Source: Pseudoxanthomonas spadix
Lineage (GTDB): Bacteria; Pseudomonadota; Gammaproteobacteria; Xanthomonadales; Xanthomonadaceae
Reading direction: 5' to 3'
NCBI RefSeq assembly: GCF_003703395.1
Contig: NZ_RDQN01000006.1
Span: 62,001 to 126,000 of the forward strand
Length of the DNA: 64,000 nt
Made by a program: the position numbers and the translations under genes
Part shown: piece by piece, positions 45,721 to 61,285 of the stretch
How the letters are laid out: the number at the start of each line of letters is the position of its first letter
How positions within the stretch are numbered: the stretch's first letter is position 1
The notes under the pieces: model-generated
What the model saw: only the letters and a program-made list of their open reading frames with translations
What the model was told of the DNA's origin: nothing
Database searches by the model: none

Positions 45721-45830
45721 CCCTGCCCGCAGCCGGCTGCAGCGCTGCTGCCGATGGCTGCGCTCAAAATCCAATTGCGCAGGATGAAGAAACCCGTCCG
45801 AGGCGGTCGATGCGCAATCCATCGCTCTGC

Positions 45831-45836
45831 TAACGT
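45831..45836 (+). promoter_or_regulatory. -10 box 6 nt before the EIIA start (possible leaderless promoter)
   Basis: TAACGT, with TG one base before it (TGCTAACGT), is separated from the ATG at 45843 by 6 nt. No ribosome site precedes the ATG. Confidence 0.4.
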
Positions 45837-45842
45837 GGCAGC

Positions 45843-46235
45843 ATGACCTGCGGCCTCCTGCTCATCACCCATCCCGGCATTGGCCCCTCGCTCCTGGCGG
45901 TGGCCAACGGCCTGCTGCGCAAGCTTCCGCTCAAGACCGAGGCGTTCGAGGTGCCCTTCGACGCCGATCTGGAAGCATTGCTGCCGCAGGCTTCTGCCGC
46001 GCTGCGGCGCGTGGACGGCGGCGACGGCGTGCTGGTATTGACCGACCTGTATGGCGCCTCGCCCAGCAACCTGGCGGGCAAGGTCGCGCGCCTGGGTACG
46101 CCGGTGCGCCGGGTCTCGGCACTGAGCCTGCCCATGCTGCTGCGGGTGATGAACTATCCGGAACAGGGACTGGACCAACTCCCGGCCATCGCCGCGGCCG
46201 GCACACGCAACGGAGTGATTCTCGACGATGCTTGA
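45843..46235 (+). CDS. PTS EIIA component, mannose family
   Basis: 130 aa. Mannose-type EIIA with phosphorylatable H10 (CGLLLITHPGIG) and the active site DLYGASPSN. No EIIB, EIIC or EIID genes follow, so it is probably a regulatory phosphate acceptor rather than part of a transporter. Overlaps ptsH by 8 nt. Confidence 0.9.
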   Translation: MTCGLLLITHPGIGPSLLAVANGLLRKLPLKTEAFEVPFDADLEALLPQASAALRRVDGGDGVLVLTDLYGASPSNLAGKVARLGTPVRRVSALSLPMLLRVMNYPEQGLDQLPAIAAAGTRNGVILDDA

Positions 46236-46497
46236 ACGCAACCTCACCGTGACCAACAAACTGGGCCTGCACGCCCGGGCCACCGCCAAGCTGGTGCAGG
46301 CCGTGGCGCCATTCCGCAGCCAAGTGACCCTGGCCGCCAAGGGCCGCCAGGTCAACGCCAAGAGCATCATGGGCGTGATGTTGCTGGCCGCCGGCCAGGG
46401 CACCGCGGTCACCGTGCGTACCGATGGCGAGGATGAAGCCGCGTGCATGGAGGCGATCGAAGCGTTGTTCGAACGACGCTTCGACGAGGAAGGCTAG
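46228..46497 (+). CDS. ptsH: Phosphocarrier protein HPr
   Basis: 89 aa. H15 in GLHARATAK is the PEP-dependent site, and S46 in NAKSIMGVM is the HprK site. Both regulatory residues are intact. Takes phosphate from enzyme I and passes it to EIIA. Confidence 0.95.
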   Translation: MLERNLTVTNKLGLHARATAKLVQAVAPFRSQVTLAAKGRQVNAKSIMGVMLLAAGQGTAVTVRTDGEDEAACMEAIEALFERRFDEEG

Positions 46498-46587
46498 GGG
46501 CGTGGACGGCAGGAAATGCCGTCGCGGCGCGTTTCCGTTCGAGGCGACCGTGTCCACGACGCGCCCCCTTCGCGTGGGCACGCGCTG

Positions 46588-48306
46588 ATGCGCAGGCTGC
46601 TGCCGGGCCATGGCGCTTCGCGCGGCAGTGCCCTGGGACGTGCGCGCGTGCGCAACCCGCATGCGCTGCAGGTGGCCGAGCAGCGCATCCGCTCCAGCGA
46701 GGTCGAGCACGAACTGGCCCGCCTGCACACCGCGGTCGATGCGGCCCGTACCGAAATGCACGACCTGCGCGCGCGCCTGCATGGCGCCCTGGCGCGCGAG
46801 GTCGGCGAGTTCCTCGAGCTGCATGCCCTGCTGCTGGACGATCCGGAACTGCTGCAAGGCCTGGATGAGCTGATCCGCAAGGGCCGCTACGGCGCCGACT
46901 ACGCGCTCAGGCTGCAGCGCGACCGCCTGGCGGCGGTGTTCGAGGGCATGGACGATGCCTATCTGAGAAGCCGCATGGACGACCTGGACCATGTGATCGG
47001 CCGCATCCACGCGCACCTGCACAACCGCGCCGCCGATGCCGAGGGCCTGGCCGGCGAGATCCTGGTCGCCGAAACCGTGGCTCCCTCCGAACTGGCCCAG
47101 CTGCAGGCCCAGGGCGTGGTCGCGGTGGTCACGTCCACCGGCAGCGCGCTCTCGCACAGCGCGATCCTGGCCCGCAGCCTGCACATGCCGCTGGTGGTGG
47201 GCGCCAGCCAGGCGCTGAGCCGGATCAGCGACGGCGATGCGCTGATCGTCGATGGCGACAGCGGCCAGGTGGTGGTCGATCCGTCGGCCAGGGACCTGCG
47301 CCACTACCGCCAGCGCCTGAAGGATGCCGCCCGCGAGCAGCGCGAGCTTGACCGCCTGCGCGGCAAGCCCACCCGCACCCGCGATGGCGTGGACATCGCC
47401 CTGCATGCCAACGCCGAATCGCGCACCGATGTTGCCCAGGCCCATGCGCTGGGTGCGGCCGGGATCGGCCTGTACCGCACCGAGTTCCTGTTCCTGCAGC
47501 GCAACGCGCTGCCGGACGAGGACGAACAGTTCCGCACCTACCGCGACGTGGTGCTGGGCATGAGCGGGCGCCCGGTGACCATCCGCACCCTCGACCTGGG
47601 CGCGGACAAGGCTGACCGCACCGGCCTGGCCCTGCGCGGCGAGGACAACCCGGCCCTGGGCCTGCGCGGGGTACGCCTGTCGCTGGCCCATGGCGAGGTC
47701 TTCGATACCCAGCTGCGCGCGATCCTGCGCGCCTCCGGCTACGGTCCGGTGCGCGTGCTGGTGCCGATGGTGGCCGTGCGCGAGGAGCTGCTGGAGGTGC
47801 GCAAGCGGCTCAAGCGCCTGACCGCGCAGCTGCGCAGGGGCGGCCACGAGGTCGCCGCCGAGGTGCCGATGGGCGCGATGATCGAAGTGCCGGCCGCGGC
47901 GATCTGCGTGGAGCATTTCATCGACCTGGTGGATTTCCTGTCGGTGGGCACCAACGACCTGGTCCAGTACCTGCTGGCCGCCGACCGCAACAACGATGCC
48001 CTGGGCGAACTCTACTCGCCGCTGCGTCCGGCCCTGCTGCGGCTGCTGGACACGGTGCTGCGCACCGGTCGCGAGCACGGCAAGCAGGTCACCGTCTGCG
48101 GCGAGATCGCCGGCGATGCGGCAATGGCCCCCATCCTGCTGGCGCTGGGACTGGAGCACTTCAGCCTGCATCCGTCCAACATGCTGGAACTGCGCCGCGC
48201 CATCCGCGGCCATGACCGGGCCGCACTGCTGGCCTCGGCCGGCAAGCTGCTCAAGGCCCGCGACCGCGCCGGCATCGAACACTGGCTGGAAAAAGCCACG
48301 CGCTGA
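46588..48306 (+). CDS. ptsI: PTS enzyme I (PEP:protein phosphotransferase)
   Basis: 572 aa, the standard EI length without a GAF domain. Phosphohistidine H190 in STGSALSHSAILAR, PEP-binding LYRTEFLFLQ, and catalytic Cys in VTVCGEIAGD. The start at 46588 gives the EI-type N-terminus RRLLPGHGASRGSALGRA; an upstream ATG at 46516 would add 24 Arg-rich residues. Starts the phosphorelay EI-HPr-EIIA. Confidence 0.93.
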   Translation: MRRLLPGHGASRGSALGRARVRNPHALQVAEQRIRSSEVEHELARLHTAVDAARTEMHDLRARLHGALAREVGEFLELHALLLDDPELLQGLDELIRKGRYGADYALRLQRDRLAAVFEGMDDAYLRSRMDDLDHVIGRIHAHLHNRAADAEGLAGEILVAETVAPSELAQLQAQGVVAVVTSTGSALSHSAILARSLHMPLVVGASQALSRISDGDALIVDGDSGQVVVDPSARDLRHYRQRLKDAAREQRELDRLRGKPTRTRDGVDIALHANAESRTDVAQAHALGAAGIGLYRTEFLFLQRNALPDEDEQFRTYRDVVLGMSGRPVTIRTLDLGADKADRTGLALRGEDNPALGLRGVRLSLAHGEVFDTQLRAILRASGYGPVRVLVPMVAVREELLEVRKRLKRLTAQLRRGGHEVAAEVPMGAMIEVPAAAICVEHFIDLVDFLSVGTNDLVQYLLAADRNNDALGELYSPLRPALLRLLDTVLRTGREHGKQVTVCGEIAGDAAMAPILLALGLEHFSLHPSNMLELRRAIRGHDRAALLASAGKLLKARDRAGIEHWLEKATR

Positions 48307-48387
48307 GCGCTTGGCTGCGCGCGATGGGTGTGCACGGGCCGGTCCCTGGCGTGCGCATGCAGGGTGTCCTTTCCCTGCAGCGGGGGC

Positions 48388-48393
48388 GATAAT
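48388..48393 (+). promoter_or_regulatory. Candidate -10 box upstream of mgtE
   Basis: GATAAT is followed after 6 nt by ATGAACACCTGA, a three-codon mini-ORF, then about 62 nt to the mgtE start. No clear -35 or known Mg2+ riboswitch is recognisable. Confidence 0.35.
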
Positions 48394-48473
48394 GCGCGCA
48401 TGAACACCTGACCTGCAGCGCATCGTCCTTTGGCGAAGCGGTGCTTCCACCGACCGCACAGGGGGCCACGCGC

Positions 48474-49832
48474 ATGGCAGAAGCCGTCCGCCGCGACAAG
48501 ACCGCCCGACAGCTGCGCCTGCTGTCCGACGCGCTGGACAGTGGCCGCCTGGGCCCGGTGCGGCGTCTGGTCAACACGCTGTCCCCGGCCGAGATCGGCA
48601 ACCTGCTCGAATCGCTGCCGCCGGGCAAGCGCGAGGTGGTCTGGGGCCTGGTCGATCCGGAAGACGACGGCGAGGTGCTGGTCCACGTCGGCGAGGAAGT
48701 GCGCGAAAGCCTGCTGGCCGACATGGACCCCGATGAGATCATCGCGGCGGTCGAAGACCTGGACATCGACGACCTGGCCGACCTGGTCGAGGACCTGCCC
48801 GACACGGTCATCGACGAAGTGCTCAAGTCGATGGACCGCGAGAACCGCGAGCGCCTGGAGCAGGTGCTCTCCTATCCGGAGGATTCGGCCGGACGCCTGA
48901 TGAACCCGGACGTGGTCACGGTGCGGGCCGACGTCAACATCGAGCTGGTGCTGCGCTACCTGCGCCTGCGCGGCGAGCTGCCCGACCACACCGACCACCT
49001 GTTCGTGGTCAGCAAGAAGCACCAGTACATGGGCCGGGTGCCGCTGGCCGCACTGGTCACCCACGAGCCGTCCACGCCGATCAACCGCCTGATCGACGAC
49101 GAGCAGCCGGCGATCGGCGTGGAGGAAGGCTCGGCCGAGGTGGCGCGCAAGTTCTCCGACCACGACTGGGTCTCGGCGCCGGTGGTGGACGACAACAACA
49201 TCCTGCTCGGCCGCATCACCATCGACGACGTGGTCGACATCATCCGCGACCAGGCCGAGCACCAGGCCCTGAGCGCAGCCGGCCTGGACGAGGAAGAGGA
49301 CCTGTTCTCGCCGATCCGGCGCGCATTCCGCCGGCGCATGCTGTGGCTGGGCATCAACCTGGGCACCGCGTTCATCGCCTCCTCGGTGGTCAGTTCGTTC
49401 GAAGACACCATCGCAAGGCTGGTCGCCCTGGCCGCGTTGATGCCCATCGTCGCCGGCATGGGCGGCAATGCCGGCACCCAGGTGCTGGCGCTGATGGTGC
49501 GCGGCCTGGCGCTGGGCCAGATCGGCGGCTCCAACGTCTACGTGCTGCTGCGCAAGGAGCTGGGTGTGGCGCTGATCAACGGCCTCGGCCTGGGCACGCT
49601 GCTGGGCCTGATCGTGCTGGTCTGGTTCCGCCAGCCCGGCCTGTCGCTGGTGATCGGCATCGCCTTGACCCTGAACCTGCTCACCGCCGCGGCCGGCGGG
49701 GTGGCGGTGCCGCTGGTGCTCAAGCGCTTGGGCTTTGATCCTGCGCTGGCCGGCAGCGTCATCCTGACCACCCTGACCGATGTCATGGGCTTCATGAGCT
49801 TCCTGGGCCTGGCCACGCTGGTCCTGCTGTAA
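48474..49832 (+). CDS. mgtE: Magnesium transporter MgtE
   Basis: 452 aa. Acidic N domain (about 30-130; DIDDLADLVEDLPD), two CBS domains (about 135-260), the connecting helix and five TM helices with the selectivity region PIVAGMGGNAGTQ. A Mg2+-gated channel: N and CBS domains close it when Mg2+ is high. Start at 48474 has GGGGG near -10; an upstream in-frame ATG at 48441 lacks a ribosome site. Confidence 0.93.
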   Translation: MAEAVRRDKTARQLRLLSDALDSGRLGPVRRLVNTLSPAEIGNLLESLPPGKREVVWGLVDPEDDGEVLVHVGEEVRESLLADMDPDEIIAAVEDLDIDDLADLVEDLPDTVIDEVLKSMDRENRERLEQVLSYPEDSAGRLMNPDVVTVRADVNIELVLRYLRLRGELPDHTDHLFVVSKKHQYMGRVPLAALVTHEPSTPINRLIDDEQPAIGVEEGSAEVARKFSDHDWVSAPVVDDNNILLGRITIDDVVDIIRDQAEHQALSAAGLDEEEDLFSPIRRAFRRRMLWLGINLGTAFIASSVVSSFEDTIARLVALAALMPIVAGMGGNAGTQVLALMVRGLALGQIGGSNVYVLLRKELGVALINGLGLGTLLGLIVLVWFRQPGLSLVIGIALTLNLLTAAAGGVAVPLVLKRLGFDPALAGSVILTTLTDVMGFMSFLGLATLVLL

Positions 49833-49951
49833 GCGGCGGTGGAGGCCGGCATGCAGGCAGTGGCCGGGCGGACGGGGACCCCCTGTGCGGGATGGCTGCG
49901 CCCTGCCTCGCGCCGAGCGTCATCGTCTGGTCCGGCGTGAGCAATGAACCG

Positions 49952-50179
49952 TCAGGACTTGCTGCCTGGCCATGCAATTTGCACCTTGCGATGCTGCATC
50001 ACACAGTCACGCAGGTACAAATTGATCAGGCTTTGATACGGAACGCCTGCCTCATTGGCCATGGCCTTGAAGTAATCCACCACGTCCTCCGACAGGCGCA
50101 TGGAGACCGGCTTCTTGAGCTTGGCTGCGTACGGGTTCTTGCGGGACTTCATTTTGGAGAGATCGTATTCGGCTTTCAT
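49952..50179 (-). CDS. brnA: BrnA-type antitoxin
   Basis: 75 aa. Typical BrnA: MKAEYDLSKMKSRKNPYAAK, then MRLSEDVVDYFKAMANEAGVPYQ and LINLYLRDCV (RHH-like DNA-binding domain). Neutralises BrnT and represses the operon. ATG at 50179, 5 nt after the toxin stop; an earlier GTG at 50188 overlaps brnT. Confidence 0.9.
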   Translation of the reverse strand: MKAEYDLSKMKSRKNPYAAKLKKPVSMRLSEDVVDYFKAMANEAGVPYQSLINLYLRDCVMQHRKVQIAWPGSKS

Positions 50180-50184
50180 GGCGG

Positions 50185-50463
50185 TCACTGCCCGTAGAAG
50201 GAGCTTTCGTGTTGCGTGGCTTTGCGTGCTGAAATGATGCGGATAACGCCGCCACTGTCGCGCTCACAGTGGCAAACCAGGAGAAGATGAGCCCCGCTAC
50301 TCATGCCAAGCATGAGCAAGCGCTCCTCATCCGAGGAGTGGGATGCATCGTAGAACTGGATGGCGAACTCGTCGTAGAAGACGGATTTGGCTTCTTCGAA
50401 GGAAACGCCATGTTTGCGAAGGTTTGAGGCGGCCTTGGCCGGATCCCAGTCAAACTTGATCAT
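50185..50463 (-). CDS. brnT: BrnT ribonuclease toxin
   Basis: 92 aa, RelE-like fold. Family motifs FDWDPAKAASNLRKHGVSFEEA, FYDASHSSDEERL, VCHCER and IRIISARKAT, including the catalytic Arg/His region. Cleaves RNA and blocks translation when free. The -10 box lies only 6 nt upstream of the ATG, so the mRNA may be leaderless. Confidence 0.92.
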   Translation of the reverse strand: MIKFDWDPAKAASNLRKHGVSFEEAKSVFYDEFAIQFYDASHSSDEERLLMLGMSSGAHLLLVCHCERDSGGVIRIISARKATQHESSFYGQ

Positions 50464-50484
50464 CTGTACATTGTATGGATGATC
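50458..50484. promoter_or_regulatory. brnTA promoter and inverted-repeat operator
   Basis: 7-bp arms GATCATC (50458-50464) and GATGATC (50478-50484) flank a minus-strand -10 TACAAT (50470-50475). The left arm overlaps the brnT start codon. BrnA-BrnT complexes repress their own promoter, so this is a strong candidate operator. Confidence 0.55.
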
Positions 50485-50677
50485 GACGCCCTTGCAAGGC
50501 CTGACAGGACCTGGCTGTTCGCACAGCCGGGTCCATGAACCGCGCCGGATCGCGCACGGGATGGCCAGGCAGCCAGGCCTTGCCGCGCGCGGTCCTGGCC
50601 CCGGTCCGAGCGTCGTGCGCCACTGCGCCTGTCCGGCGACAGGCGTATAAGAACCCATCCCGTCAGGAGTGCGTCGC

Positions 50678-51235
50678 ATGAAAATCCTGCTCAAGATCGC
50701 CGCCCTGGGCCTGGTCGGCACCCTGGCCAGCGCCTCGGTCGCCTCGGCCGCGCTGAAGAACGGCACTCCGGCGCCGGCGTTCAGCGCACCGGCCTACCTG
50801 GCCGGCAAGCCGTTCACCTTCAACCTGGCCGATGCGCTGAAGAACGGGCCGGTGGTGGTGTATTTCTTCCCGGCCGCCAACACCTCCGGCTGCAACCTGG
50901 AGGCGCACCTGTTCTCCGAGGCCGTGGATGAGTTCAGGACCCACGGCGCCACGGTGATCGGCGTGACCGCCGGCAACACCGAGCAGCTGGCCGAGTTTTC
51001 CAGGAACACCGAGACCTGCGGCGGCAAGTTCGCCGTGGTGGCCGACGCCGGTGCCCGCATCGCCAGGCAATACGACGCGCTGCTGCCCATGAAGCCCGGC
51101 TGGTCCAACCGCACCTCGTATGTGATCACCGCCCAGGGCACCGTGGCCCACGCCTACTCCGACCTCAACCCGAAGCAGCACGTGCAGCAAACCCTGGATG
51201 CGGTGAAGGCGCTGGAGCACGGGAAGGACGGCTGA
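50678..51235 (+). CDS. Exported peroxiredoxin (AhpC/Bcp-like)
   Basis: 185 aa. Signal peptide ending ASAA (residues 21-25), thioredoxin-like fold with peroxidatic C72 (FFPAANTSGC) and a probable resolving C114. Reduces peroxides in the periplasm. AGGAG at 50665-50669 supports the ATG at 50678; TATAAG at 50646 is a possible -10. An exported version of Bcp is less usual than the cytosolic one. Confidence 0.85.
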   Translation: MKILLKIAALGLVGTLASASVASAALKNGTPAPAFSAPAYLAGKPFTFNLADALKNGPVVVYFFPAANTSGCNLEAHLFSEAVDEFRTHGATVIGVTAGNTEQLAEFSRNTETCGGKFAVVADAGARIARQYDALLPMKPGWSNRTSYVITAQGTVAHAYSDLNPKQHVQQTLDAVKALEHGKDG

Positions 51236-51336
51236 TCGGCCCAAGCCGGCCTGCCTGTCGTGACAGTGGCGAAGGTGCCGCCGCGTTGCCGGTGCACCCC
51301 GCCCTCCCGGATGCTCACGCCTGCCAGACTTGCCAC

Positions 51337-51828
51337 ATGTCCACGCTGAAGTACATCGCCGGCTATCCCCAGCACGTCCAGGACCAGGTCCGGGCGCTGC
51401 TCGACGCCGGCACCCTGGGCCAGGTGCTGGCGCGCCGCTATGGCGAGGGCCACGCGGTGCGCACCGACCGCCAGCTCTACGACTACACCCAGCAGATCAA
51501 GGAGCGCTACCTGCGCTCGGCCCAGCCGCTGCACAAGGTGATCTACGACGCCAAGCTGCAGGTCCTCAGGCATGCCCTGGGCACCCATACCGCGGTCTCG
51601 CGCGTGCAGGGCGCCAGGCTCAAGGCCAGCCGCGAGATCCGCATCGCCACGGTGTTTCGCCAGGCGCCGGCCGAGTTCCTCAGGATGATCGTGGTGCACG
51701 AGCTGGCGCACCTGAAGGAAGGCGAACACAACAAGGCCTTCTACCAGCTGTGCACGCACATGGCCGCCGACTATCACCAGCTCGAATTCGACCTGCGCCT
51801 GTACCTGACCCAGCTCGAACAGCGCTGA
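51337..51828 (+). CDS. YgjP-like M48 family metallopeptidase
   Basis: 163 aa. Zinc motif HELAH (121-125) with a third ligand H131 in GEHNKAFY, characteristic of the YgjP/WLM-like (DUF45) family. N-terminal YIAGYPQHVQDQVRALLD. No membrane segment. Function uncertain; relatives act on SUMO-like or DNA-repair targets in eukaryotes. ATG at 51337 begins the family region. Confidence 0.83.
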   Translation: MSTLKYIAGYPQHVQDQVRALLDAGTLGQVLARRYGEGHAVRTDRQLYDYTQQIKERYLRSAQPLHKVIYDAKLQVLRHALGTHTAVSRVQGARLKASREIRIATVFRQAPAEFLRMIVVHELAHLKEGEHNKAFYQLCTHMAADYHQLEFDLRLYLTQLEQR

Positions 51829-51959
51829 CGCGCGGCAGCCTCGGGCCGCCTGGGCTGCACCATGCCCTGCGGCGCGGTGAGCGGCGCATGCCGCGCAAAC
51901 GCTAACGCCACGTGTGCTTGCCCTGCGTGCCGGTCACGGCTGGCTGACGGCCAGGCAGA

Positions 51960-51965
51960 TAGCGT
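51960..51965 (+). promoter_or_regulatory. -10-like box 6 nt before the acyl-CoA dehydrogenase start
   Basis: TAGCGT ends 6 nt before the ATG at 51972, the same geometry as the other candidate leaderless promoters in this window. Confidence 0.3.
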
Positions 51966-51971
51966 CGCCGG

Positions 51972-52988
51972 ATGACTGGCGCTTTTTCTGCAAACAGCCC
52001 TGGATCGCCTGGACCTTCGACAACCCAGCCAGTCACCAGCGATGGGCTGGCCGCGATGGCGTTTGAGGTCCTGACGCGCACGCCGTCACTGCCGATGCCG
52101 GGCGGCGGTTCGACCTGGGCGCGCTGGCAGGCGCTGTCCGCCCTGGGTGCGCGCGACCTGTGCCTGGTCAAGCTGCTCGAGGCCCATTACGACGCGCAGG
52201 CCATCCTGCAGGAACTCGGCGGCGATCCACCGCGGCCGGGCCAGCTGTGGGCGGTGTGGGCCGCCGAACCGCCCGGGGTGACCCTGGAGTTCGCGCCGCA
52301 GGATCACCTGTCCGGCCACCTGAGCGGCGAAAAGGCCTGGTGCTCCGGCGCATCGCTGGTCAGCCATGCGTTGCTGACGGCCACCCATGACGACGCGCGG
52401 CTGTTGTGCCGCATGGCGATGGACCGCACGCGCCTGGACTACGACGACAGCCGCTGGCAAGCCGTGGGCATGGCCCGCATCAGCAGCGGCACCCTGCGCC
52501 TGCGGCGGGCGCCAGCCGAACGGGTCGGTGCGCCCGGCGCCTACCTGGCACGGCCCGGTTTCTGGCATGGCGGCGCCGGCATCGCCGCGTGCTGGCATGG
52601 CGGCGCGGTCGGGGTGGCCCAGCGCCTGCGCCGTGATGCCCGGATCGGGCGCAATCCGCACGCCGCCGCGCACCTGGGTGCGGTCGACGTCGCCCTGGCC
52701 GCGGCATCGGCCCTGCTCAAGGACACCGCGCGACGCATCGACCAACGACCGCACGATCCGCACCGTGAGGCGGTCACCCGCCTGCGCGCCTGCGTCGCGC
52801 AGGTGGCCACCGAAGTGGTCGAACGCACCGGCCGCGCCCTGGGCGCCGGCCCGCTGTGCACCGAAGGCGACCACGCCCAGCGCTGCGCGGACCTGCTGAT
52901 CTTCATCCGCCAATCCCACGCCGAAACCGATCTGCAGTGGCTGGGCGAAGCGGCCGCGCGCCGGGAGGATTGCCCCTGGACGCTGTGA
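51972..52988 (+). CDS. Acyl-CoA dehydrogenase-like flavoprotein
   Basis: 338 aa, shorter than the usual 380. Resembles the acyl-CoA dehydrogenase fold: a helical N-terminal part, a central beta section (KAWCSGASLVSHALLTA, with GSTWARWQALSALG before it), and a C-terminal helical bundle rich in Ala and Arg. The usual catalytic Glu position cannot be assigned by eye, so enzymatic activity is uncertain. First gene of a four-gene unit; its stop overlaps the PIG-L start. The substrate is unknown. Confidence 0.75.
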   Translation: MTGAFSANSPGSPGPSTTQPVTSDGLAAMAFEVLTRTPSLPMPGGGSTWARWQALSALGARDLCLVKLLEAHYDAQAILQELGGDPPRPGQLWAVWAAEPPGVTLEFAPQDHLSGHLSGEKAWCSGASLVSHALLTATHDDARLLCRMAMDRTRLDYDDSRWQAVGMARISSGTLRLRRAPAERVGAPGAYLARPGFWHGGAGIAACWHGGAVGVAQRLRRDARIGRNPHAAAHLGAVDVALAAASALLKDTARRIDQRPHDPHREAVTRLRACVAQVATEVVERTGRALGAGPLCTEGDHAQRCADLLIFIRQSHAETDLQWLGEAAARREDCPWTL

Positions 52989-53743
52989 GTCCGCGCGGCG
53001 CGCTCATCCAGGGCGGTGGCACCGGCGAATCGGAGTGGCTGGCTTCGCCCCGGCTGCGCGCCGTGCCGGCCACCAACCTGGCCCAGCTGATCGGCGATGC
53101 GCGCCGGCTGGTGGTGGTCGCGCCCCATCCGGACGATGAAGTCCTCGGCTGTGGCGGCCTGATCGCCCTGGCGGTGCAGGCGGCCGTGGATGTGGTGGTG
53201 GTCGCGCTGAGCGACGGCGAGGCCGCCTACCCCGATGATCCGCACTGGACCGGCCAACGCCTGGCGCCGGCACGGCGCGCCGAGCTCATCGACGCCTGCC
53301 GGGCGCTGGGCGTATCGCCGGCCAAGATCGTGCACGCCGGCCTGCCCGACGGCCGGCTTCGTGCCCACTTGGACAAGGCCGCGCAGCTGCTGGCCGGCCT
53401 CGTCCAGGCCGGTGATGCGGTGCTGGTGACCTGGGCACGCGATGGCCACCCCGATCACGAAGCGGCCGCCGATGCCACCCTGCGCGCCTGCGCGCAGGTC
53501 GGTGCGCGCTGCATCCAGTACCCCATCTGGGCCTGGCATTGGGGCGATCCACGGCAGCCAGCCTTTCTTGAAGGCGCCGCTGCGCGCCTGCCGCTGCCGC
53601 AGGCGGCGTGGGACGCCAAGCAGCGGGCACTGGCCTGCTTCGCCACCCAGACCGGCCACTGCACGCCCGCTCCGGCCCAGCCGATCCTGCCTGCACACGT
53701 GCTGGTCCGTTTCGGCCGCGACTTCGAGCTGCTCCTGCCATGA
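52985..53743 (+). CDS. PIG-L/LmbE family deacetylase
   Basis: 252 aa starting at GTG 52985 (GTGA overlap). Zinc motif PHPDDE (47-52), general acid/base pattern, and second zinc motif HPDH (155-158). Members remove N-acetyl groups from GlcNAc-containing substrates (mycothiol, GPI, lipids). The gene order predicts the product is passed to the following methyltransferase or glycosyltransferase. An upstream TTG at 52973 is an alternative start. Confidence 0.88.
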   Translation: MSPRGALIQGGGTGESEWLASPRLRAVPATNLAQLIGDARRLVVVAPHPDDEVLGCGGLIALAVQAAVDVVVVALSDGEAAYPDDPHWTGQRLAPARRAELIDACRALGVSPAKIVHAGLPDGRLRAHLDKAAQLLAGLVQAGDAVLVTWARDGHPDHEAAADATLRACAQVGARCIQYPIWAWHWGDPRQPAFLEGAAARLPLPQAAWDAKQRALACFATQTGHCTPAPAQPILPAHVLVRFGRDFELLLP

Positions 53744-54351
53744 ACGCCGACCCGCACGGCGCCCTCGCCCGCCAGCTCGATGCCATGCATGCGCAGGACG
53801 ATCCATTCGGCTATCGCACGCGCTGGTACGAGGCGCGCAAGCGTCAGGTTTTGCTGGCCACGCTGCCGCATCCGCACTTCGAGCGAGCCTGGGAAATCGG
53901 CTGTTCCAACGGCGAACTCACCGCCGCGCTCTCGCCGCGCTGCAGCCACCTGCTGGCCACCGACCTGTCGGCCAATGCGGTGCGCCAGGCGCGCGCGCGC
54001 AACGCCGGCGATCCGGTGGTCCAGGTGCAGCAGGCGCAGCATCCGGCGCAGTGGCCAGATGGACGCTTCGATCTGATCGTGCTGAGCGAGGTGGGCTACT
54101 ACATGCCGCCCCAGGCACTGCAGGAGGTGGCCGGGCGCATCGCCGGTTCGCTCACCGCGCACGGCCTGCTGGTGGCCTGCCACTGGCTGCATCCGTTCCA
54201 GGGCGCCTACCAGCACGGCGCGCAGGTGCATGGCGTGCTGGCTGCCGGCGTGCCGCTGCCGCGCGTGTATCGCTACCAGGATCCGGACTTCCTGCTGGAA
54301 GGCTGGAGCGCGATGCCGCAGTCGATCGCCCAGCGCGAGGGCCTGCGATGA
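53740..54351 (+). CDS. NodS-like class I SAM-dependent methyltransferase
   Basis: 203 aa. SAM-binding motif I is AWEIGCSNGELTAAL and motif II region is LLATDLSANAV; the N-terminal DPFGYRTRWYEARKRQVLLATL is typical of the NodS family. NodS N-methylates deacetylated chito-oligosaccharides in rhizobia. Here the acceptor may be the amine exposed by PIG-L. Overlaps both neighbours by 4 nt. Confidence 0.85.
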   Translation: MNADPHGALARQLDAMHAQDDPFGYRTRWYEARKRQVLLATLPHPHFERAWEIGCSNGELTAALSPRCSHLLATDLSANAVRQARARNAGDPVVQVQQAQHPAQWPDGRFDLIVLSEVGYYMPPQALQEVAGRIAGSLTAHGLLVACHWLHPFQGAYQHGAQVHGVLAAGVPLPRVYRYQDPDFLLEGWSAMPQSIAQREGLR

Positions 54352-55088
54352 TCGCGGTGCTGATCCCGGCCCATGACGAGGCAGCCACCATCGGCCGCTG
54401 CCTGGCCTCGGTCCGCGTCGCCGCCGCACATCCGGCGCTGCTGGACGAACCGGTGATCGTGGTCGTGGCGCTGGATCGCTGCAGCGATTCGACCGGGACC
54501 ATTGCGCTGGAGCACGGCGCGCGGGTGGTGGTGGTGGATGCACCCGGCGGTGTCGGTGCCGCGCGCGCGGCCGCGGCCAGGGTGGCCATCTCCCTGGGCG
54601 CACGCTGGCTGGCCATGACCGATGCCGACAGCTGGGTCCCGCCGGACTGGCTGGCAGCCCAGCTCGGCCATTGTGCCGACGCCTTCTGCGGCCTGGTCGA
54701 GGTGATCGACTGGGAGGACTACGCCGCGCCGGTGCGCGAGGCGTTCGGCCAGCGCCAGCACAGCGGCGACGACCATCCCCACGTGCACGGCGCCAACCTG
54801 GGGGTGAGCACCGAGCTGTATCTGCGCAGTGGCGGCTTCCTGCCCCTGCGCTGCAGCGAGGACGTGGCCCTGGTCCAGGCGCTGGTGCAGGTGCAGGCGT
54901 CGATCGCGCGCAAGGCCCGTCCGGCCGTTCGCACCAGCGCGCGCCGCCAGGCCCGCGCCAGCGGCGGGTTCAGCCATTACCTGCAGGCGCTGGAAGAAAG
55001 CCTGCCGGTTGAGCGGTTGCTGCCACCGCATGCGGCTGTCAAGGTGACCGCGGACCCGGCCAGCCAGGACGACGCCTTCGCCGCTTGA
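54348..55088 (+). CDS. Family 2 glycosyltransferase
   Basis: 246 aa GT-A fold. N-terminal VLIPAHDEAATIGRCLAS, metal/nucleotide motif MTDADSWVPPDW (DxD) and acceptor region NLGVSTELYLRSGGF with ED in CSEDVALVQ. No membrane helices, unlike NodC. Last gene of the cassette and ends 152 nt before the sensor diguanylate cyclase. Confidence 0.87.
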   Translation: MIAVLIPAHDEAATIGRCLASVRVAAAHPALLDEPVIVVVALDRCSDSTGTIALEHGARVVVVDAPGGVGAARAAAARVAISLGARWLAMTDADSWVPPDWLAAQLGHCADAFCGLVEVIDWEDYAAPVREAFGQRQHSGDDHPHVHGANLGVSTELYLRSGGFLPLRCSEDVALVQALVQVQASIARKARPAVRTSARRQARASGGFSHYLQALEESLPVERLLPPHAAVKVTADPASQDDAFAA

Positions 55089-55240
55089 TGCCCGGGTACA
55101 CGGGCGGGCCGCAGCGCGCCTGGTCCTCCTGGGAAAATGACCCGGTTGACTTCCGATGGCGCGGCCCCGGCACCGCCGGGCTCGGCGCCGTGATCGTCCG
55201 CACAATTCCGGCATACTCCCCGCCAGGGGATCAGAATGCC

Positions 55241-58200
55241 ATGTGCCGACTCGGTGGATTGCTCGGAATGCTGCTGTGCCTTGCCGTCCCTGCGTTCGCG
55301 CAGGCACCGGCCGGCGCCGACGGTCAGCCGCGCCCGCTGGACCTGATGGACCTGGGCGCCCCGGCGTTCACCAACTTCACCGACCGCGATGGCCTGCCCG
55401 ACGCCGGGGTGATGTCCACCTGCGTGGATCGCGAAGGTTTCGTGTGGGGCGCCACGCCCGTCGGCGTGTATCGCTACGACGGCCATCGCTGGCTGGCCAG
55501 CGATGATCCGGCCGTGGCGCACTCGGCCACCCACGTCTTCGTTGACCACGCCGGCACGCTGTGGGTCGCCTTTCGCAAGGCCGGCCTGGCCCGCTACGAC
55601 GGCGTGCGCTGGCACCCCGCCAGCACCGAGACCGGGCTGCCGTCCAACCAGATCAAGCGCTTTGCCGAAACGATCGATGCCAGCGGCGCCCACACCTTGT
55701 GGGCACTGACCTGGGACCGCGGCCTGATCCGCCTGGCCGGCGACACCTGGGAGCTGGATCCGGGCAACGCCTCGCTGCCAGCCGACCCGCTGCGCTCGAT
55801 GACCCAGACCAAAGAGCTGGGCGCGCCCGGCCGCCAGTGGCTGGGCACCAATGCGCGCGGCCTATGGTATCGCGACGCCGGTCAGACCGACTGGCATCGC
55901 TGGGAGGGTCACCAGCTCGACGCCATGCAGGTCGAGGACCTGCTGGCGGTCATGCACGATGGGCGCGAGGAATTGTGGATCTCCACCTACGTCAACGGCC
56001 TGTGGCGGATGCGCGCCGACGGCATGCGCCGCTGGAGCCAGCAGCAGGGCGACTTCCCCAGCAACGTGCTCTATACCCTGGCCAGTACCGCGCTGGCCGA
56101 CGGCAACCGCGCGATCTGGGTGGCCAGCCGTGCTGGCCTGCTGCGCGTGCAGGACGACACGCTGCAGGTGTTCAACCGTCGCCACGGCATGCACTCGGAG
56201 GTGATCCGCTCCGTCAGCGCCTGGCGCAGCCCGGACGGCCTGGACGTGCTGTGGATGGCCAACGACTCGGGCGTCTCGCGCAGCGCACTGGGCGCCAGTC
56301 CATGGGCGATCGCCTCGCTGATGGGGCTCGATTCGCTGGGCGTGTTCGGCTTTCTGGTCGAGCCTGACGGCCGTGGCGGCGAGCGGCTGTGGGTCAGCTC
56401 GGCCGGCGAAGGCCTGGCCCTGTACGAACGCGGCCAGTGGCAGCACTTCACCCAGGCCGAGGGCGTGCCGCCGGACGCCAACATCGGTTCGGTCATGGCC
56501 ACGACCGAGGCCGACGGCCGCAAGACCTACTGGGTCAGCCTGCGCGGTGGTGCACTGCTGCGTCGACGCCCGGACGATGCGCGCTTCGTCCCGATCGACA
56601 CGCCGTGGCGGCAGACCATCGGCGAGATGGTCTACGACACCCTGGTGCGCACCTACGACGGCCGCCGCGAGCAATGGTTCGCCACGCGCGAGACCGGCCT
56701 GTACCGGCTGCGCGACGGGATCTGGACCACGTTCACACCGCCCGATGCCAACGCACCGTGGCGGGCGATGCGGGTGCGCGAGGTGATCGATGGCGATGGC
56801 CGTTCGTGGCTGTGGGCGGCGACCAACCAGGGCCTGTCGCGCTTCGACGGCCAGCGCTGGGATCCGATGGCCAGGACCCTGGGCCTGCCGGAAACCAACG
56901 CGATCGGCCTGACCCAGATCGACGATGCCCAGGGCCGCCAGATCCTGTGGGTGGGCACCAGCAGCGCCGGGGTTAGCCGTGTGGATGTCACCGACCCGCG
57001 CCATCCGCGCATGCTGGCCGACGCCCTGCCCGCGCCGCCCGATCCCAGCGTCTACAACCCCGCCGCCGACAGCGCCGGGCGTGTGTACCTGTGCACCAAC
57101 AACGGCGTGCAGCTGCTCACGCCGACTGCCGGCGGCTACACCAGCCGGGTCTTCAACCGGCGCGACGGCATGGTCCACCAGGAATGCAACTACGTGCACA
57201 TGGTCGATGCGCACGACCGCTTCTGGACCGGCACGCTCGGCGGCCTGGCCGTGTACGACCCCAGCCGCGAGGTCCGCGACACCCAGCCCAAGCCGCTGAA
57301 GATCACCAGCCTGCAAATCGATGGCCGCCGCGTCACCGGGCCGGTGCTCGACGTGCCTGCCGGCACCAGGGAAATCCGGGTCGACTACGCCCTGCTGTCC
57401 TGGTATCGCGAGGCCGATTCGCGCTTCCGCACCCAGCTGGTCGGCTACGACGCCAGTCCGAGCCAATGGAGCGACCAGACCACGCGCACCTTCAACGCAC
57501 TGCCGCCAGGCCGTTACCAGCTGCGCGTGGAAGCGCACGACCACGCCAACAACGCCAGCACCCCGGTGCTGGTCACCATCGTCATGCACGCACAGTGGTG
57601 GCAGACGCTGTGGTTTCACCTGGTGATCGCACTGACGATATTGCTGCTGGTCTATGCGGTCGTGCTGCTGCGCACCCGCCACCTGCGCGCCCAGCGCGCG
57701 GCGCTGGAAGCCCACATCGCCACGCGCACGGCCGAGCTCAACCTCGCCAACGCGCGCCTGCTGGAACTGTCCTACCTCGACGCGCTGACCGGCCTGCCCA
57801 ACCGCCGCCGCCTGCTCGAAGCGCTGGAACACCCGGCCGTGCCCACCATGGCCACGCTGATCCTGATGGATGTGGACCACTTCAAGGCCTACAACGATCG
57901 CTTTGGCCATCTGGCCGGCGACCAGGCCCTGCGCCACGTGGCCGACGTGCTGCGCCAGTGCGCCGACAGCGACGTGCTGATGGCCCGCTATGGCGGGGAG
58001 GAATTCGCCTGCCTGGTGCCCGGCGACGATCCGACGCGCGGCCTGGTCCTGGCCGAATGCATCCGTCAGACGATGGCCGACTGCGCACTGGCGGTCCCCG
58101 GCCAGACCCAACTCATGCATGTGACCCTGAGCGCCGGCATCGCCCACGGGCCGCTGGCCGGCGCAGAGCAAGCCGACCGCCTGCTGCACCACGCCGATCT

Positions 58201-58315
58201 GGCCCTGTACCAGGCCAAGCGCGACGGCCGCAACCGCGTGCGCCGCCGCGACGTGCCCCTGGCACCAGCAGGGGGTGATGTGCCCGATGCCGGCGGCCCC
58301 GGCGGCATGAGCTGA
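55241..58315 (+). CDS. Two-component-propeller sensor diguanylate cyclase
   Basis: 1024 aa. Signal peptide ending PAFAQ (about 20). A large periplasmic part (about 30-690) contains repeated Reg_prop blades (such as DREGFVWGATPVGVYRYDG and GTLWVAFRKAGLARYDG), then a Y_Y_Y domain, one TM helix (about 791-811), a short coiled linker and a GGDEF domain (about 845-1000; GGEEF at 918-922). It makes c-di-GMP in response to a periplasmic ligand. No RxxD I-site is seen before GGEEF. Not fused to a histidine kinase, unlike most propeller sensors. ATG at 55241 opens the signal peptide. Confidence 0.88.
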   Translation: MCRLGGLLGMLLCLAVPAFAQAPAGADGQPRPLDLMDLGAPAFTNFTDRDGLPDAGVMSTCVDREGFVWGATPVGVYRYDGHRWLASDDPAVAHSATHVFVDHAGTLWVAFRKAGLARYDGVRWHPASTETGLPSNQIKRFAETIDASGAHTLWALTWDRGLIRLAGDTWELDPGNASLPADPLRSMTQTKELGAPGRQWLGTNARGLWYRDAGQTDWHRWEGHQLDAMQVEDLLAVMHDGREELWISTYVNGLWRMRADGMRRWSQQQGDFPSNVLYTLASTALADGNRAIWVASRAGLLRVQDDTLQVFNRRHGMHSEVIRSVSAWRSPDGLDVLWMANDSGVSRSALGASPWAIASLMGLDSLGVFGFLVEPDGRGGERLWVSSAGEGLALYERGQWQHFTQAEGVPPDANIGSVMATTEADGRKTYWVSLRGGALLRRRPDDARFVPIDTPWRQTIGEMVYDTLVRTYDGRREQWFATRETGLYRLRDGIWTTFTPPDANAPWRAMRVREVIDGDGRSWLWAATNQGLSRFDGQRWDPMARTLGLPETNAIGLTQIDDAQGRQILWVGTSSAGVSRVDVTDPRHPRMLADALPAPPDPSVYNPAADSAGRVYLCTNNGVQLLTPTAGGYTSRVFNRRDGMVHQECNYVHMVDAHDRFWTGTLGGLAVYDPSREVRDTQPKPLKITSLQIDGRRVTGPVLDVPAGTREIRVDYALLSWYREADSRFRTQLVGYDASPSQWSDQTTRTFNALPPGRYQLRVEAHDHANNASTPVLVTIVMHAQWWQTLWFHLVIALTILLLVYAVVLLRTRHLRAQRAALEAHIATRTAELNLANARLLELSYLDALTGLPNRRRLLEALEHPAVPTMATLILMDVDHFKAYNDRFGHLAGDQALRHVADVLRQCADSDVLMARYGGEEFACLVPGDDPTRGLVLAECIRQTMADCALAVPGQTQLMHVTLSAGIAHGPLAGAEQADRLLHHADLALYQAKRDGRNRVRRRDVPLAPAGGDVPDAGGPGGMS

Positions 58316-58447
58316 GCCACACGACCCGGCGGCGCACGGCCTGGTTCAATTTCCCTGACACCGCATCGGGGGACTGGGCGTAAAGTGCACGCGCGCGCCA
58401 GGCCCTGGCGATGCCAGACCGATCGACCTGCCAACTACGAGGGTGTC

Positions 58448-58546
58448 ATGAGCAAGGGGATGGACCAGAAGAAGAACCAGAAGAAAGAGCCGACCAAGAC
58501 GCTGAAGGAAAAGCGCGAGGCCAAGAAGGAAAAGAAAGGCAAGTAA
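58448..58546 (+). CDS. Very small lysine-rich protein (32 aa)
   Basis: Sequence has 13 lysines in 32 residues (MSKGMDQKKNQKKEPTKTL, then KEKREAKKEKKGK). A GAGGG ribosome site lies about 5 nt before the ATG, and a TAAAGT about 60 nt upstream is a possible -10. No hydrophobic core, so it is likely disordered and nucleic-acid binding. The reading frame is clean and the start well placed, but its reality rests on sequence features only. Confidence 0.55.
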   Translation: MSKGMDQKKNQKKEPTKTLKEKREAKKEKKGK

Positions 58547-58803
58547 TCCGCTCGGCCGTGCAAGCCTGGTCGGCTGGCCCAGGACGCGGCGGCGCCCGGC
58601 TGACACCCTGGCACTGCTTCTTTGCCCGGCGCGGCGTCGCCGCGTTGGGCGCAGTGCCCTGAGTGCAGGCGGTCGCTGGCCCCACCCGTCCTGGCCGGAA
58701 AGTGCACGGCTGACAGACCCGGCCCACATCCAGCGGGGCCATGCCTTCACGGCCGGCCGACGCCGCCGATGGCATTGATGCACCGCACCCACGCGAGACG
58801 CCC
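58547..58803. other. 257-bp gene-free spacer
   Basis: Contains a stem-loop (about 58611-58659, GGCACTGC paired with GCAGTGCC and inner GCGCGGCG/CCGCG) and no convincing gene. It may be a processing or termination structure between the two small genes. Confidence 0.4.
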
Positions 58804-58974
58804 ATGACGACACTGCGCACGACCAAGGCCATGCCACCGGATGCCCTTTTCACCCGGCCACGCGAAGACAAGCGCGCCGCCCACGCAGTGCTTCAGGACA
58901 AGCTGGACGCCTTTGAACGCGCCGGCGGACAGATCGAGAAACTCGGCACGACCGTCCCGCGCAAGACGGGCTGA
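58804..58974 (+). CDS. Small conserved-looking protein (56 aa)
   Basis: 56 aa, charged. The C-terminus DAFERAGGQIEKLGTTVPRKTG has a compact GG-x-I-x-x-LG motif that looks conserved rather than random. No signal peptide. Followed by a good terminator, which supports a real transcript. ATG at 58804; an earlier in-frame ATG at 58741 has no ribosome site. Function unknown. Confidence 0.55.
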   Translation: MTTLRTTKAMPPDALFTRPREDKRAAHAVLQDKLDAFERAGGQIEKLGTTVPRKTG

Positions 58975-58988
58975 GGCCGGCAACCAGG

Positions 58989-59012
58989 AAGGCCGGCCCG
59001 GTGCCGGCCTTT
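58989..59012 (+). terminator. Terminator after the small protein
   Basis: Stem AAGGCCGGC (58989-58997) and GCCGGCCTT (59003-59011) with loop CCGGT, ending in a short T run. Also palindromic enough to serve pyrB from the other side. Confidence 0.7.
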
Positions 59013-59119
59013 GCTGCAGCTGGACCCGCAGACTGCCCCAGCTTGCTCCTGCCGATGCACCGCCATGGCGCCGGCGCATCTGCGAAGGCTTGCACCGCAA
59101 AATTGGGGCGCAGGTCTGC

Positions 59120-60061
59120 TCAACCCAACAACATCTCCAATACCGCCATCCGGATCGCCACCCCGTTGCCCACCTGCCGCAGCACCAGCGACTGCGGCCC
59201 GTCGGCCACCTCGTCGGTGATCTCCACGCCACGGTTGATCGGCCCCGGATGCAGTACCACTGCATCGGGCGCGGCCTGCTTCAGGCGTGCGGCGGTCAGG
59301 CCGTAGTGACGGTGGTAGTCCTCCAGCGAGGTCACCAGGCCTTCTTCCATGCGCTCGCGCTGCAGGCGCAGCATCATCAGCACGTCGGCGCCCTGCAGCG
59401 CGGCGTCGAAATCGCCGGTGGTCCTGCAGCCGGCGCTGACGGCCGCCTCCGGCAGCAGGTTGTCCGGCGCGCACAGGGTGATGTCGGTGGCGCCCAGCGT
59501 GCGCAACGCCTGCAGGTCCGAGCGGGCTACGCGCGAATGCTTGATGTCGCCCACCATCACGATCTTGCGCATGGAGAAATCCGGGCCCTTGGCCTGGCGG
59601 ATGGACAGCATGTCCAGCAGGCCCTGGGTGGGATGCGAGGCGCGGCCGTCGCCGGCGTTGATGACGGCGGTGCCTTCATGCGCGTGCCGGGCCAGCATCT
59701 GCGCCGCGCCGTCCTCGGGGTGGCGCACGATGAACCCGCGCACGCCCATCGCTTCCAGGTTGCGCAACGTGTCCAGCGCGGTCTCGCCCTTGCGCGCCGA
59801 CGAGGTGGAAGCGTCGAAGTTGATCAGGTCCGCGCCCAGGCGCTGGGCGGCGATCTGGAACGAGCTGCGCGTGCGCGTAGAAGGTTCGAAGAACAGCGTG
59901 CACACCGTGCGCCCGACCAGCGTGTCGCGCTTCTGGGTGCGGCCCAGCGCGGTGTCGCGGATGGCACCGGCGCGATCGAGGATGCGGCAGAGCGTTTGCC
60001 TGGGCAGGCCCTCCAGGGTCAGCAGGTGCAGCAGGCGGCCGTCGGAATCCAGTTGGGTCAT
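59120..60061 (-). CDS. pyrB: Aspartate carbamoyltransferase catalytic subunit
   Basis: 313 aa. Carbamoyl-P motif FEPSTRTRSSF (STRT 61-64), HPTQGLLDM, and HPGPINRGVEI. Catalyses the first committed pyrimidine step. ATG at 60061 matches the family start; longer frame upstream has no homology. Follows ruvX on the minus strand with a 110-nt gap. Confidence 0.95.
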   Translation of the reverse strand: MTQLDSDGRLLHLLTLEGLPRQTLCRILDRAGAIRDTALGRTQKRDTLVGRTVCTLFFEPSTRTRSSFQIAAQRLGADLINFDASTSSARKGETALDTLRNLEAMGVRGFIVRHPEDGAAQMLARHAHEGTAVINAGDGRASHPTQGLLDMLSIRQAKGPDFSMRKIVMVGDIKHSRVARSDLQALRTLGATDITLCAPDNLLPEAAVSAGCRTTGDFDAALQGADVLMMLRLQRERMEEGLVTSLEDYHRHYGLTAARLKQAAPDAVVLHPGPINRGVEITDEVADGPQSLVLRQVGNGVAIRMAVLEMLLG

Positions 60062-60171
60062 GGGGTGCTCGTGGTGGGGCCAGGGCGACAGGCGCGCGGG
60101 GTTGGCATGGTGGGAACAGGGAATGCTGCTGGACGCGTGCCGCCGTCTGCCGTGGGCGAAAAGGCAACAGC

Positions 60172-60621
60172 TCACTCGACATGCGTGGCCTCATGCGGGG
60201 CCGCCAGCCAGCGTTCGACGATCACCGCCGCGGCCACCGCGTCCAGCGCGGCGGCATCGCGCTTGCGCCTGCGGCCCTGGGCGCGGTCCACGGCGAAGCG
60301 CTGGGCGGCTTCGACCGAGCTGGAACGCTCGTCCACCAGGACCACCGGCAGCCTGTAGCGCAGGCGCAGTTCGCGGGCGAAGGCCTGGGCGCGCTTGCGC
60401 ACCGGCTGGTCGCCGCCGTCCAGGGTCAGTGGGTCGCCGACCACCAGGCCGTCGGGCTTCCATTCGGCGCGCAGCCTGTCCAGCGCGGCCCAGTCCGGGC
60501 CGCCGGGATGCACATCGACCACGGCCAGGGCGCGCGCGCCGGTGCCAAAGGCGCTGCCCACCGCCACACCGATCCGGCGCGAGCCCACGTCGAAACCCAG
60601 CACGGTGCCGTCCAGCCTCAT
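60172..60621 (-). CDS. ruvX: Holliday junction resolvase-like protein RuvX/YqgF
   Basis: 149 aa RNase H fold: GFDVGSRRIGVAVG, VVGDPLTLDG, VVLVDERSSSVEAAQ and C-terminal DAVAAAVIVERWL with catalytic Asp. In E. coli YqgF processes 16S pre-rRNA. The yqgE-ruvX-pyrB order is conserved in gammaproteobacteria. Confidence 0.93.
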   Translation of the reverse strand: MRLDGTVLGFDVGSRRIGVAVGSAFGTGARALAVVDVHPGGPDWAALDRLRAEWKPDGLVVGDPLTLDGGDQPVRKRAQAFARELRLRYRLPVVLVDERSSSVEAAQRFAVDRAQGRRRKRDAAALDAVAAAVIVERWLAAPHEATHVE

Positions 60622-60712
60622 GGAGCCGCGCCAGCGAGCAGGGAAGGAACCGAATGCGCTGTCTGCCAGGAGCGCCAGGCGCGGGCGAGGAAGGCATTCC
60701 TGGCCCGAAGCA

Positions 60713-61279
60713 TCATGCGTGCCCGCTGTAGTCCGTCATGCGGGTCATGTCCACGCCGATCCGGCCGGCGGCGGCCTGCCAGCGCTGGTCCAGCGGCGTG
60801 GCAAACAGCAGCTCGCGATCGGCCGGCGCGGTCAGCCAGCTGTTCTCGCCCAGTTCGAATTCCAGCTGACCCGCGCCCCAGCCGGCGCAGCCCAGCGCCA
60901 CCACCGCGTTGTCCGGGCCCTGGCCGCGGGCCATGGCTTCCAGGATGTCGCGCGAAGTGGTCAGGTACAGGTCATCGCTGATCTGCAGGGTGGAATCCCA
61001 GTCGCCACCGCCGTCGTGCAGGACGAAACCGCGCTCGGGATGGACCGGGCCGCCATACAGCACCACGCGGTTGCGCAGGGCCTCATCGTCGGTGTCCAGC
61101 TGCATCTGGTGCAGCACTTCGCCCAGGGTGTACTCCGAGGCGCGGTTGACCACCACGCCCATGGCGCCGTCGTCGTCGTGCTGGCAGATCAGCGCCACGC
61201 TGCGCGAAAAACGCGGATCGTCCAGCGCGGGCAGCGCGATCAGCAGCTGGTTGGCCAGGTTGTCGGACAGCGCGGGCAT
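60713..61279 (-). CDS. yqgE: YqgE/AlgH family protein
   Basis: 188 aa. DUF179 features: [69 protein letters not shown]. Relatives were first linked to alginate regulation (AlgH); true function unknown. A TAGAAT box 6 nt upstream suggests leaderless expression. Confidence 0.92.
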
Positions 61280-61285
61280 GGGGAC

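Follow-up and report, generated by a model that had tools for sequence, protein, structure and literature searches.

A patchily distributed four-gene cassette with a PIG-L deacetylase and a NodS-like methyltransferase, candidate source of an N-methylated amino-sugar glycoside, in Pseudoxanthomonas spadix and other bacteria

We analysed a 64,000-nucleotide stretch of Pseudoxanthomonas spadix DNA (contig NZ_RDQN01000006.1 of assembly GCF_003703395.1, positions 62,001 to 126,000; hereafter the window) and find that four of its genes, g1 to g4, form a cassette that recurs in the same order in many bacterial genomes. The genes encode a flavoprotein of the acyl-CoA dehydrogenase (ACAD) fold (g1), a PIG-L family N-deacetylase (g2), a NodS-like methyltransferase (g3) and a small family 2 glycosyltransferase (GT2; g4). 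In several other lineages the cassette lies beside, or inside, groups of trehalose or catalase genes. Our preferred reading, which we hold tentatively, is that this self-contained, patchily distributed unit makes a small N-methylated amino-sugar glycoside that serves stress survival (drying, osmotic, oxidative) in at least several lineages.

The four open reading frames (ORFs) are all on the forward strand and each junction is a 4-nt overlap; the initial annotation had described these overlaps, and the ORF map agrees at all three. When genome contigs were searched with a g1 profile, at least 543 of 598 pattern matches were confirmed as relatives. We took the best 80 of them which, with plasmid loci and loci from the genus, make up a set of 101 loci, the window included (the pairs L017/L038 and L018/L036 are duplicate places). 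Gene order is g1-g2-g3-g4 at 74 of these loci, g1-g2-g3 at 14, g1-g3-g4 at 10 and g1 alone at two; the remaining locus, L003, has no g1 and carries only the methyltransferase and the glycosyltransferase. The four-gene order thus recurs far beyond chance, so that the genes form one co-inherited unit; the initial proposal had been of one co-translated pathway. The 4-nt overlap is kept at 82 of 88 g2/g3, 81 of 84 g3/g4 and 52 of 88 g1/g2 junctions, counts that lean towards small overlaps because the script chooses the start codon nearest the stop.

No neighbour approaches the cassette genes in how widely it is shared among 12 loci compared. Six other Pseudoxanthomonas cassettes (16–18 kb each) match the window only within the cassette region (window ORFs of at least 120 aa from 44001-64000, E 1e-15; some of the matches in the cassette region are antisense). 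As these six and the window have no common flanking gene, the unit consists of these four genes. Unrelated contexts had been regarded beforehand as evidence against a unit: the flanks are indeed unrelated, but the four genes stay together. Distribution within the genus is patchy, with a cassette in 6 of 37 genomes (P. spadix included) and two cassettes in one congener. A search of 24 other genomes of the order found none, and class-wide 3 of 185 genomes, again including its own, carry one (E 1e-20). Many cassettes are located on plasmids.

Two individual loci deserve mention here. In Pseudomonas anatoliensis (L048:10897-16412), 5.5 kb containing a 1270-aa ORF parts g1 from g2-g4. Locus L076 (JAHREJ010000006.1), titled Bacillus subtilis SK7B5, carries a cassette at 50% identity next to a PA2169-like gene that is otherwise matched only in Stenotrophomonas loci; this assembly is probably mislabelled or contaminated.

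The deacetylase is the most clearly assigned of the four products. g2 scores 99 bits against PIG-L (PF02585), over the cut-off, and both zinc motifs are intact in every one of its 89 relatives, window included (HPDDE 89/89, HxDH 89/89). Its closest solved relatives are diacetylchitobiose deacetylases; teicoplanin-type deacetylases are also among its relatives. Identity as BshB or MshB is ruled out by scores below the NCBIfam equivalog cut-offs for thiol deacetylases (BshB1, 55.8 against 182.5 bits; another family, 52.1 against 195.3; MshB, 31.1 against 224.4). A second, diverged PIG-L gene lies directly downstream of the cassette in Pseudomonas (L050:13051-13857) and at many similar Pseudomonas loci.

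g3 matches Methyltransf_11 (45 bits) and NodS (PF05401; 41.4 bits against a gathering score of 24), and in NCBIfam each of the six methyltransferases of this kind that we scanned has NodS as its top family, at 25–76 bits. Against the equivalog model NF041650, g3 reaches 53 bits where the cut-off is 300 and true NodS scores 353. Among solved structures, 4isc (listed as 'Methyltransferase') is closely homologous to g3, with 135 bits; the NodS structure 3ofj has 32 bits. A first tree left the placement of NodS unsettled. In a second, NodS falls with most alphaproteobacterial enzymes, the Rubrobacter enzyme, a Deinococcus enzyme and the domains of the fusion proteins described below (98/93), on long branches, and its grouping with the gammaproteobacterial, betaproteobacterial and actinobacterial set is not rejected (p 0.41). 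The earlier label 'NodS-like methyltransferase' therefore stands for the wide family; judged by the equivalog score g3 is not NodS itself. The seven window genes scanned (50669-58315) belong to families other than nod, a result from a scan that included no dedicated nod search of the window. Among the annotated neighbourhoods of relatives, nod genes occur beside NodS in L126 and L127 and none is annotated beside the cassette relatives.

The g1 protein was initially called an acyl-CoA dehydrogenase, a description that fits its fold: the AlphaFold model (pLDDT, predicted local distance difference test, 90.3) has the ACAD fold. In sequence it is closer to flavin monooxygenases. The only Pfam match is to the C-terminal domain Acyl-CoA_dh_1 and is below threshold (20.1 bits against 22.4). 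Among solved structures, the top seven matches to the g1 profile are 5gj7/5z8t (5z8t is labelled a flavin-containing monooxygenase), TdsC, MsuC and three entries for DszC. E-values are weaker for the matches that come next, to a CoA dehydrogenase entry, a nitrososynthase and further dehydrogenases. NCBIfam models matched by four g1 proteins are SfnB and/or DszC and no others, at scores that do not reach either cut-off (window g1 against SfnB, 31 bits; cut-off 431). Fold comparison does not discriminate between monooxygenase and dehydrogenase, since the VIA Z score of 29 to TdsC is tied with true ACADs and the Foldseek list mixes both kinds. The His of the TdsC GYHF stretch, which we take to be catalytic in DszC (our literature search found no support for this), aligns with H72 of g1, and H72 is kept in 99 of 100 g1 sequences, the last having a gap. 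The ACAD catalytic Glu falls on S315 in an hhalign alignment that ends a few residues earlier and was extended by eye; this column holds Ser in 83 of 100 sequences and Glu in none, and an EGT-like pattern occurs elsewhere near the C-terminus in just one. Because of its PDB and NCBIfam relatives, H72 and the Glu-free S315 column, g1 is best read as an oxygenase-like flavoprotein and not a β-oxidation enzyme. It has fold and sequence signal in common with class D flavin monooxygenases (DszC/TdsC, MsuC, SfnB, nitrososynthases) but is at least 60 residues shorter, and the cassette has no reductase partner. The suggestion that a redox enzyme takes the place of the Nod acyl transferase is a loose analogy.

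g4 matches Glycos_transf_2 (PF00535, 51 bits), and its DxD residues D92 and D94 are invariant in 17 alignment rows. Structure matches of the model (pLDDT 89.1) are scattered over many GT2 enzymes, and no donor could be assigned from them.

The idea of a Nod-like logic, in which a GT2 enzyme, a sugar N-deacetylase and a NodS-like methyltransferase act together, gains support from two other organisms. In Rubrobacter indicoceani a polysaccharide deacetylase of the NodB type occupies the place of PIG-L, ahead of an ACAD-like gene and a methyltransferase, and this pair is followed by a flavin adenine dinucleotide (FAD) oxidoreductase and a glycosyltransferase (three of the proteins were verified by scan). 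In Sulfitobacter indolifex a single protein combines GT2 and polysaccharide deacetylase domains with one that is NodS-like (84.6 bits); a Gloeothece protein has the same three-part annotation, by annotation alone. The deacetylase replacement and the fusion protein thus support deacetylation and methylation of an amino sugar. The fusion proteins themselves (L122:5381-8461, NodS-like domain verified; L123:4940-8416, from annotation) are candidates for Nod-like sugar modification carried out by a single polypeptide in non-rhizobial bacteria.

The Nod-like logic is in our view a plausible working principle and does not imply membership of the Nod families. Nod factor assembly (NodC, NodB, NodS) likewise uses a GT2 enzyme, a sugar N-deacetylase and a NodS-family methyltransferase, and the Rubrobacter version even has a NodB-type deacetylase. 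However, the window cassette has a PIG-L deacetylase, a small GT2, a methyltransferase far under the NodS equivalog cut-off and an extra ACAD-fold flavoprotein; no nod genes were seen beside the cassette, and the carriers inspected are mostly non-rhizobial. We propose that the GT2 enzyme would place an N-acetyl-hexosamine on an acceptor, that PIG-L (or the NodB-type enzyme in Rubrobacter) would take off the acetyl group, that the NodS-like enzyme would methylate the freed amine, and that the ACAD-fold flavoprotein might oxygenate the product, perhaps at nitrogen. No signal peptide is obvious in g1-g4 on reading the sequences, and the pathway is presumably cytosolic.

The context of the cassette in other lineages is a new element beyond the initial annotation. 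On plasmids of Comamonas antarctica and C. endophytica the cassette is flanked by otsA and otsB, with a 4-nt overlap with otsA; beyond the ots block and the ferritin-like gene that follows it, the two plasmids differ. Both ots genes are also found in the flank of a third Comamonas locus (L082). In Pseudomonas L050 the cassette comes after a treZ-malQ fusion, treY and glgX, and TreY was found in the examined flank of 22 of 24 Pseudomonas loci (reference locus L050 excluded) and of one Lysobacteraceae locus. The available part of a report on Pseudomonas syringae gives the treY/Z operon as glgA, treZ, malQ, treY, glgX, and the names of the cassette enzymes do not occur in that part (PMC8982409). 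The cassette thus directly adjoins or sits inside trehalose operons (treZ-malQ-treY-glgX in Pseudomonas, otsAB in Comamonas) but itself has no known trehalose enzyme.

Catalase is a neighbour in other lineages. Acinetobacter johnsonii, Cupriavidus basilensis, two Sphingomonas, a Novosphingobium and a Sulfitobacter have a gene annotated as catalase no more than 10 kb from the cassette, and a marker scan adds catalase matches at three loci of Luteimonas and at one each of Xanthomonas, Stenotrophomonas and Lysobacteraceae. The scan covered 99 loci (L003 and L107 left out, the window scanned apart), with matches to a marker's own source locus removed; for L124, L125, L128, L129 and L140 the annotation was the sole source. 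The methyltransferase–glycosyltransferase pair of L003 has a catalase-family gene nearby, and Ku or LigD matches occur at Novosphingobium, Bradyrhizobium, Comamonas, Pseudomonas and Stenotrophomonas loci. With flanks of 5–10 kb, neither catalase nor trehalose neighbours were found in Roseomonas, Paracoccus, Rubrobacter, Pandoraea, Kitasatospora, Actinoplanes or Caballeronia, in the g1-bearing Paraburkholderia loci or in most Xanthomonadaceae.

In Acinetobacter, the cassette of one plasmid locus (L004) is 4.4 kb from a gene for a large catalase and 0.7 kb from what is, by label alone, an 'iron-containing redox enzyme'. This recalls the desiccation cluster of dtpA, dtpB, dtpC and katE, of which dtpC-katE is described, in the part of the source available to us, as a desiccation operon of A. 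baumannii; the terms deacetylase, glycosyltransferase, methyltransferase and acyl-CoA do not occur in that part (PMC13232832). However, L004 and the A. baumannii locus L110 share only the four cassette genes. L110 comes from a record filed as a plasmid (3.66 Mb), and a run of drug-resistance genes lies ∼ 4.5 kb from its cassette.

Control comparisons point the same way for trehalose and catalase together. We compared 20 cassette loci with 20 control stretches of the same contigs, each at a distance of 50–100 kb: catalase or trehalose genes are present at seven of the former and none of the latter (Fisher p 0.004), and at least one of 19 marker kinds at nine and none (p 0.0006). Across 30 genomes with 31 cassettes, TreY is found no more than 20 kb from the cassette in five cases, four of them Pseudomonas, where 0.19 are expected (p 2e-6).

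Several observations weigh against a stress-protective glycoside. The enrichment p-values are indicative only, because the markers were picked near cassettes and related loci are not independent. In the 30 genomes the excess of catalase within 20 kb is weak (three seen, 0.63 expected, p 0.026) and OtsA, with one case against 0.39 expected, is not above chance (p 0.32). The 64-kb window has no match to any of the 19 marker kinds, and of eight Pseudoxanthomonas loci in the marker scan one had a match, to a zinc alcohol dehydrogenase only. Any stress role of the cassette in P. spadix itself would have to be extrapolated from other lineages. Ten loci in Paraburkholderia, Burkholderia and Cupriavidus lack PIG-L between g1 and g3, and at nine of them neither PIG-L nor a polysaccharide deacetylase was found within the 5–21 kb searched; at the tenth, L103, a PIG-L gene lies 3.2 kb away. 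Searches of whole genomes, five for PIG-L and eight for polysaccharide deacetylase, did find such genes away from the cassette. A g4 homologue is missing at 14 loci, of which two have another glycosyltransferase (four queries). Not every step is therefore indispensable at these loci, or the missing step is done elsewhere. Finally, transport genes of varied kinds lie near some cassettes (major facilitator superfamily near L004, L108 and L124; resistance-nodulation-division pumps near L104, L108 and L140), and the product may therefore be exported.

Table 1. Cassette genes and junctions in the window (positions of the 64,000-nucleotide stretch)
Feature	Position	Strand	Assignment	Basis
g1	51972..52988	+	ACAD-fold flavoprotein, class-D (FMNH2-dependent) monooxygenase-like	sub-threshold Acyl-CoA_dh_1, PDB sequence matches, model, conserved positions
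g2	52985..53743	+	PIG-L (LmbE) family N-deacetylase, GTG start	PF02585 99 bits, zinc motifs
g3	53740..54351	+	NodS-like S-adenosylmethionine (SAM)-dependent methyltransferase	PF05401, NF041650 scores, homology to 4isc
g4	54348..55088	+	small GT2 glycosyltransferase	PF00535 51 bits, D92/D94, model pLDDT 89.1
g1/g2 overlap, 4 nt, GTGA	52985..52988	+		ORF map
g2/g3 overlap, 4 nt, ATGA	53740..53743	+		ORF map
g3/g4 overlap, 4 nt, ATGA	54348..54351	+		ORF map

The start of g1 is unsure: residues 1-20 of the model have a pLDDT below 50, and the alignment of relatives begins at about residue 25-36. Downstream of the cassette, as noted before, is a sensor diguanylate cyclase (55241-58315; Propeller/Y_Y_Y sensor with a GGDEF domain, by Pfam), whose likely ATG at 55241 is 152 nt past the cassette end and whose N-terminus looks like a signal peptide on reading. 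Its position is as described, but it does not travel with the cassette: the six other cassettes of the genus showed no homologue of it nearby. Upstream are a YgjP/WLM/SprT-like metallopeptidase (51286-51828) and a peroxiredoxin (50669-51235), both assigned by Pfam. The same six loci rule out a conserved link of the cassette to the cyclase, the peroxiredoxin or the metallopeptidase.

Three other explanations have to be set against a stress-protective glycoside. The cassette could be an ordinary small specialised-metabolite cluster, making a sugar-modified natural product, whose stress neighbours are mere co-residents of accessory islands. The patchy distribution (6/37 in the genus, 3/185 in the class), the many plasmid locations, the window without a stress marker, the transport genes near some cassettes and the teicoplanin-type relatives of PIG-L would all be at home in such a cluster. 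It fits less well with the two Comamonas cassettes embedded between otsA and otsB with a 4-nt otsA overlap, with trehalose or catalase neighbours in several lineages, or with a cassette devoid of any scaffold-making enzyme; we consider it doubtful, if by no means far-fetched.

Somewhat less probable, in our judgement, is that the cassette, through its GT2 enzyme and by deacetylation and methylation, modifies N-acetyl-hexosamine in a surface or extracellular polysaccharide such as a capsule, possibly under cyclic di-GMP control. The diguanylate cyclase after the cassette in the window would suit this, as would the Sulfitobacter fusion protein among polysaccharide genes, three further glycosyltransferases before the cassette in Novosphingobium, and the surface-glycan enzymes WrtF and TarS among the GT2 fold matches. 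However, in the 12 loci compared no neighbour comes close to the cassette genes in spread, the annotated loci have no single flippase, polymerase or exporter in common (no systematic search was made), the cyclase does not travel with the cassette, and g1-g4 have no obvious signal peptide.

That the product is a redox cofactor or a low-molecular-weight thiol of the bacillithiol or mycothiol kind, with PIG-L as the BshB or MshB deacetylase, is very unlikely: PIG-L plus a glycosyltransferase, the BshB1 match of g2 and the catalase or peroxidase neighbours that give the cassette an oxidative-stress context in several lineages do recall those pathways (MshA/B, BshA/B), but g2 misses both cut-offs, MshA and BshA are GT4 enzymes whereas g4 is GT2, the cassette adds a methyltransferase and a flavoprotein, and no ligase named MshC or BshC appears in the annotated neighbourhoods (no dedicated search was made).

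We therefore retain a small N-methylated amino-sugar glycoside with a stress role as the preferred reading. A bolder version, which we consider rather unlikely, is that the cassette makes a new class of stress protectant: an amino-sugar glycoside that is N-methylated, possibly also N-oxygenated, and conceivably built on an acceptor of the trehalose type. In that case the four genes would be a plug-in to trehalose and catalase islands across Pseudomonadota and Actinomycetota, with a methyltransferase family of ancestry common with Nod factor synthesis. A full-text literature search gave no account that we recognised of this gene combination; the negative is weak, because the term PIG-L did not turn up in any of the papers found and the index may mishandle it. 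A term search within PMC6181384 gave no match.

If the preferred reading is true, and if the at least 543 g1 relatives resemble the 80 fetched, an unstudied pathway would be present in hundreds of bacterial species, in some lineages inside well-studied trehalose clusters. Its product could then partly explain how these bacteria survive in soil, on dry surfaces and on leaves, and the cassette may offer a non-symbiotic setting for two sugar modifications familiar from Nod factors, N-deacetylation and N-methylation.

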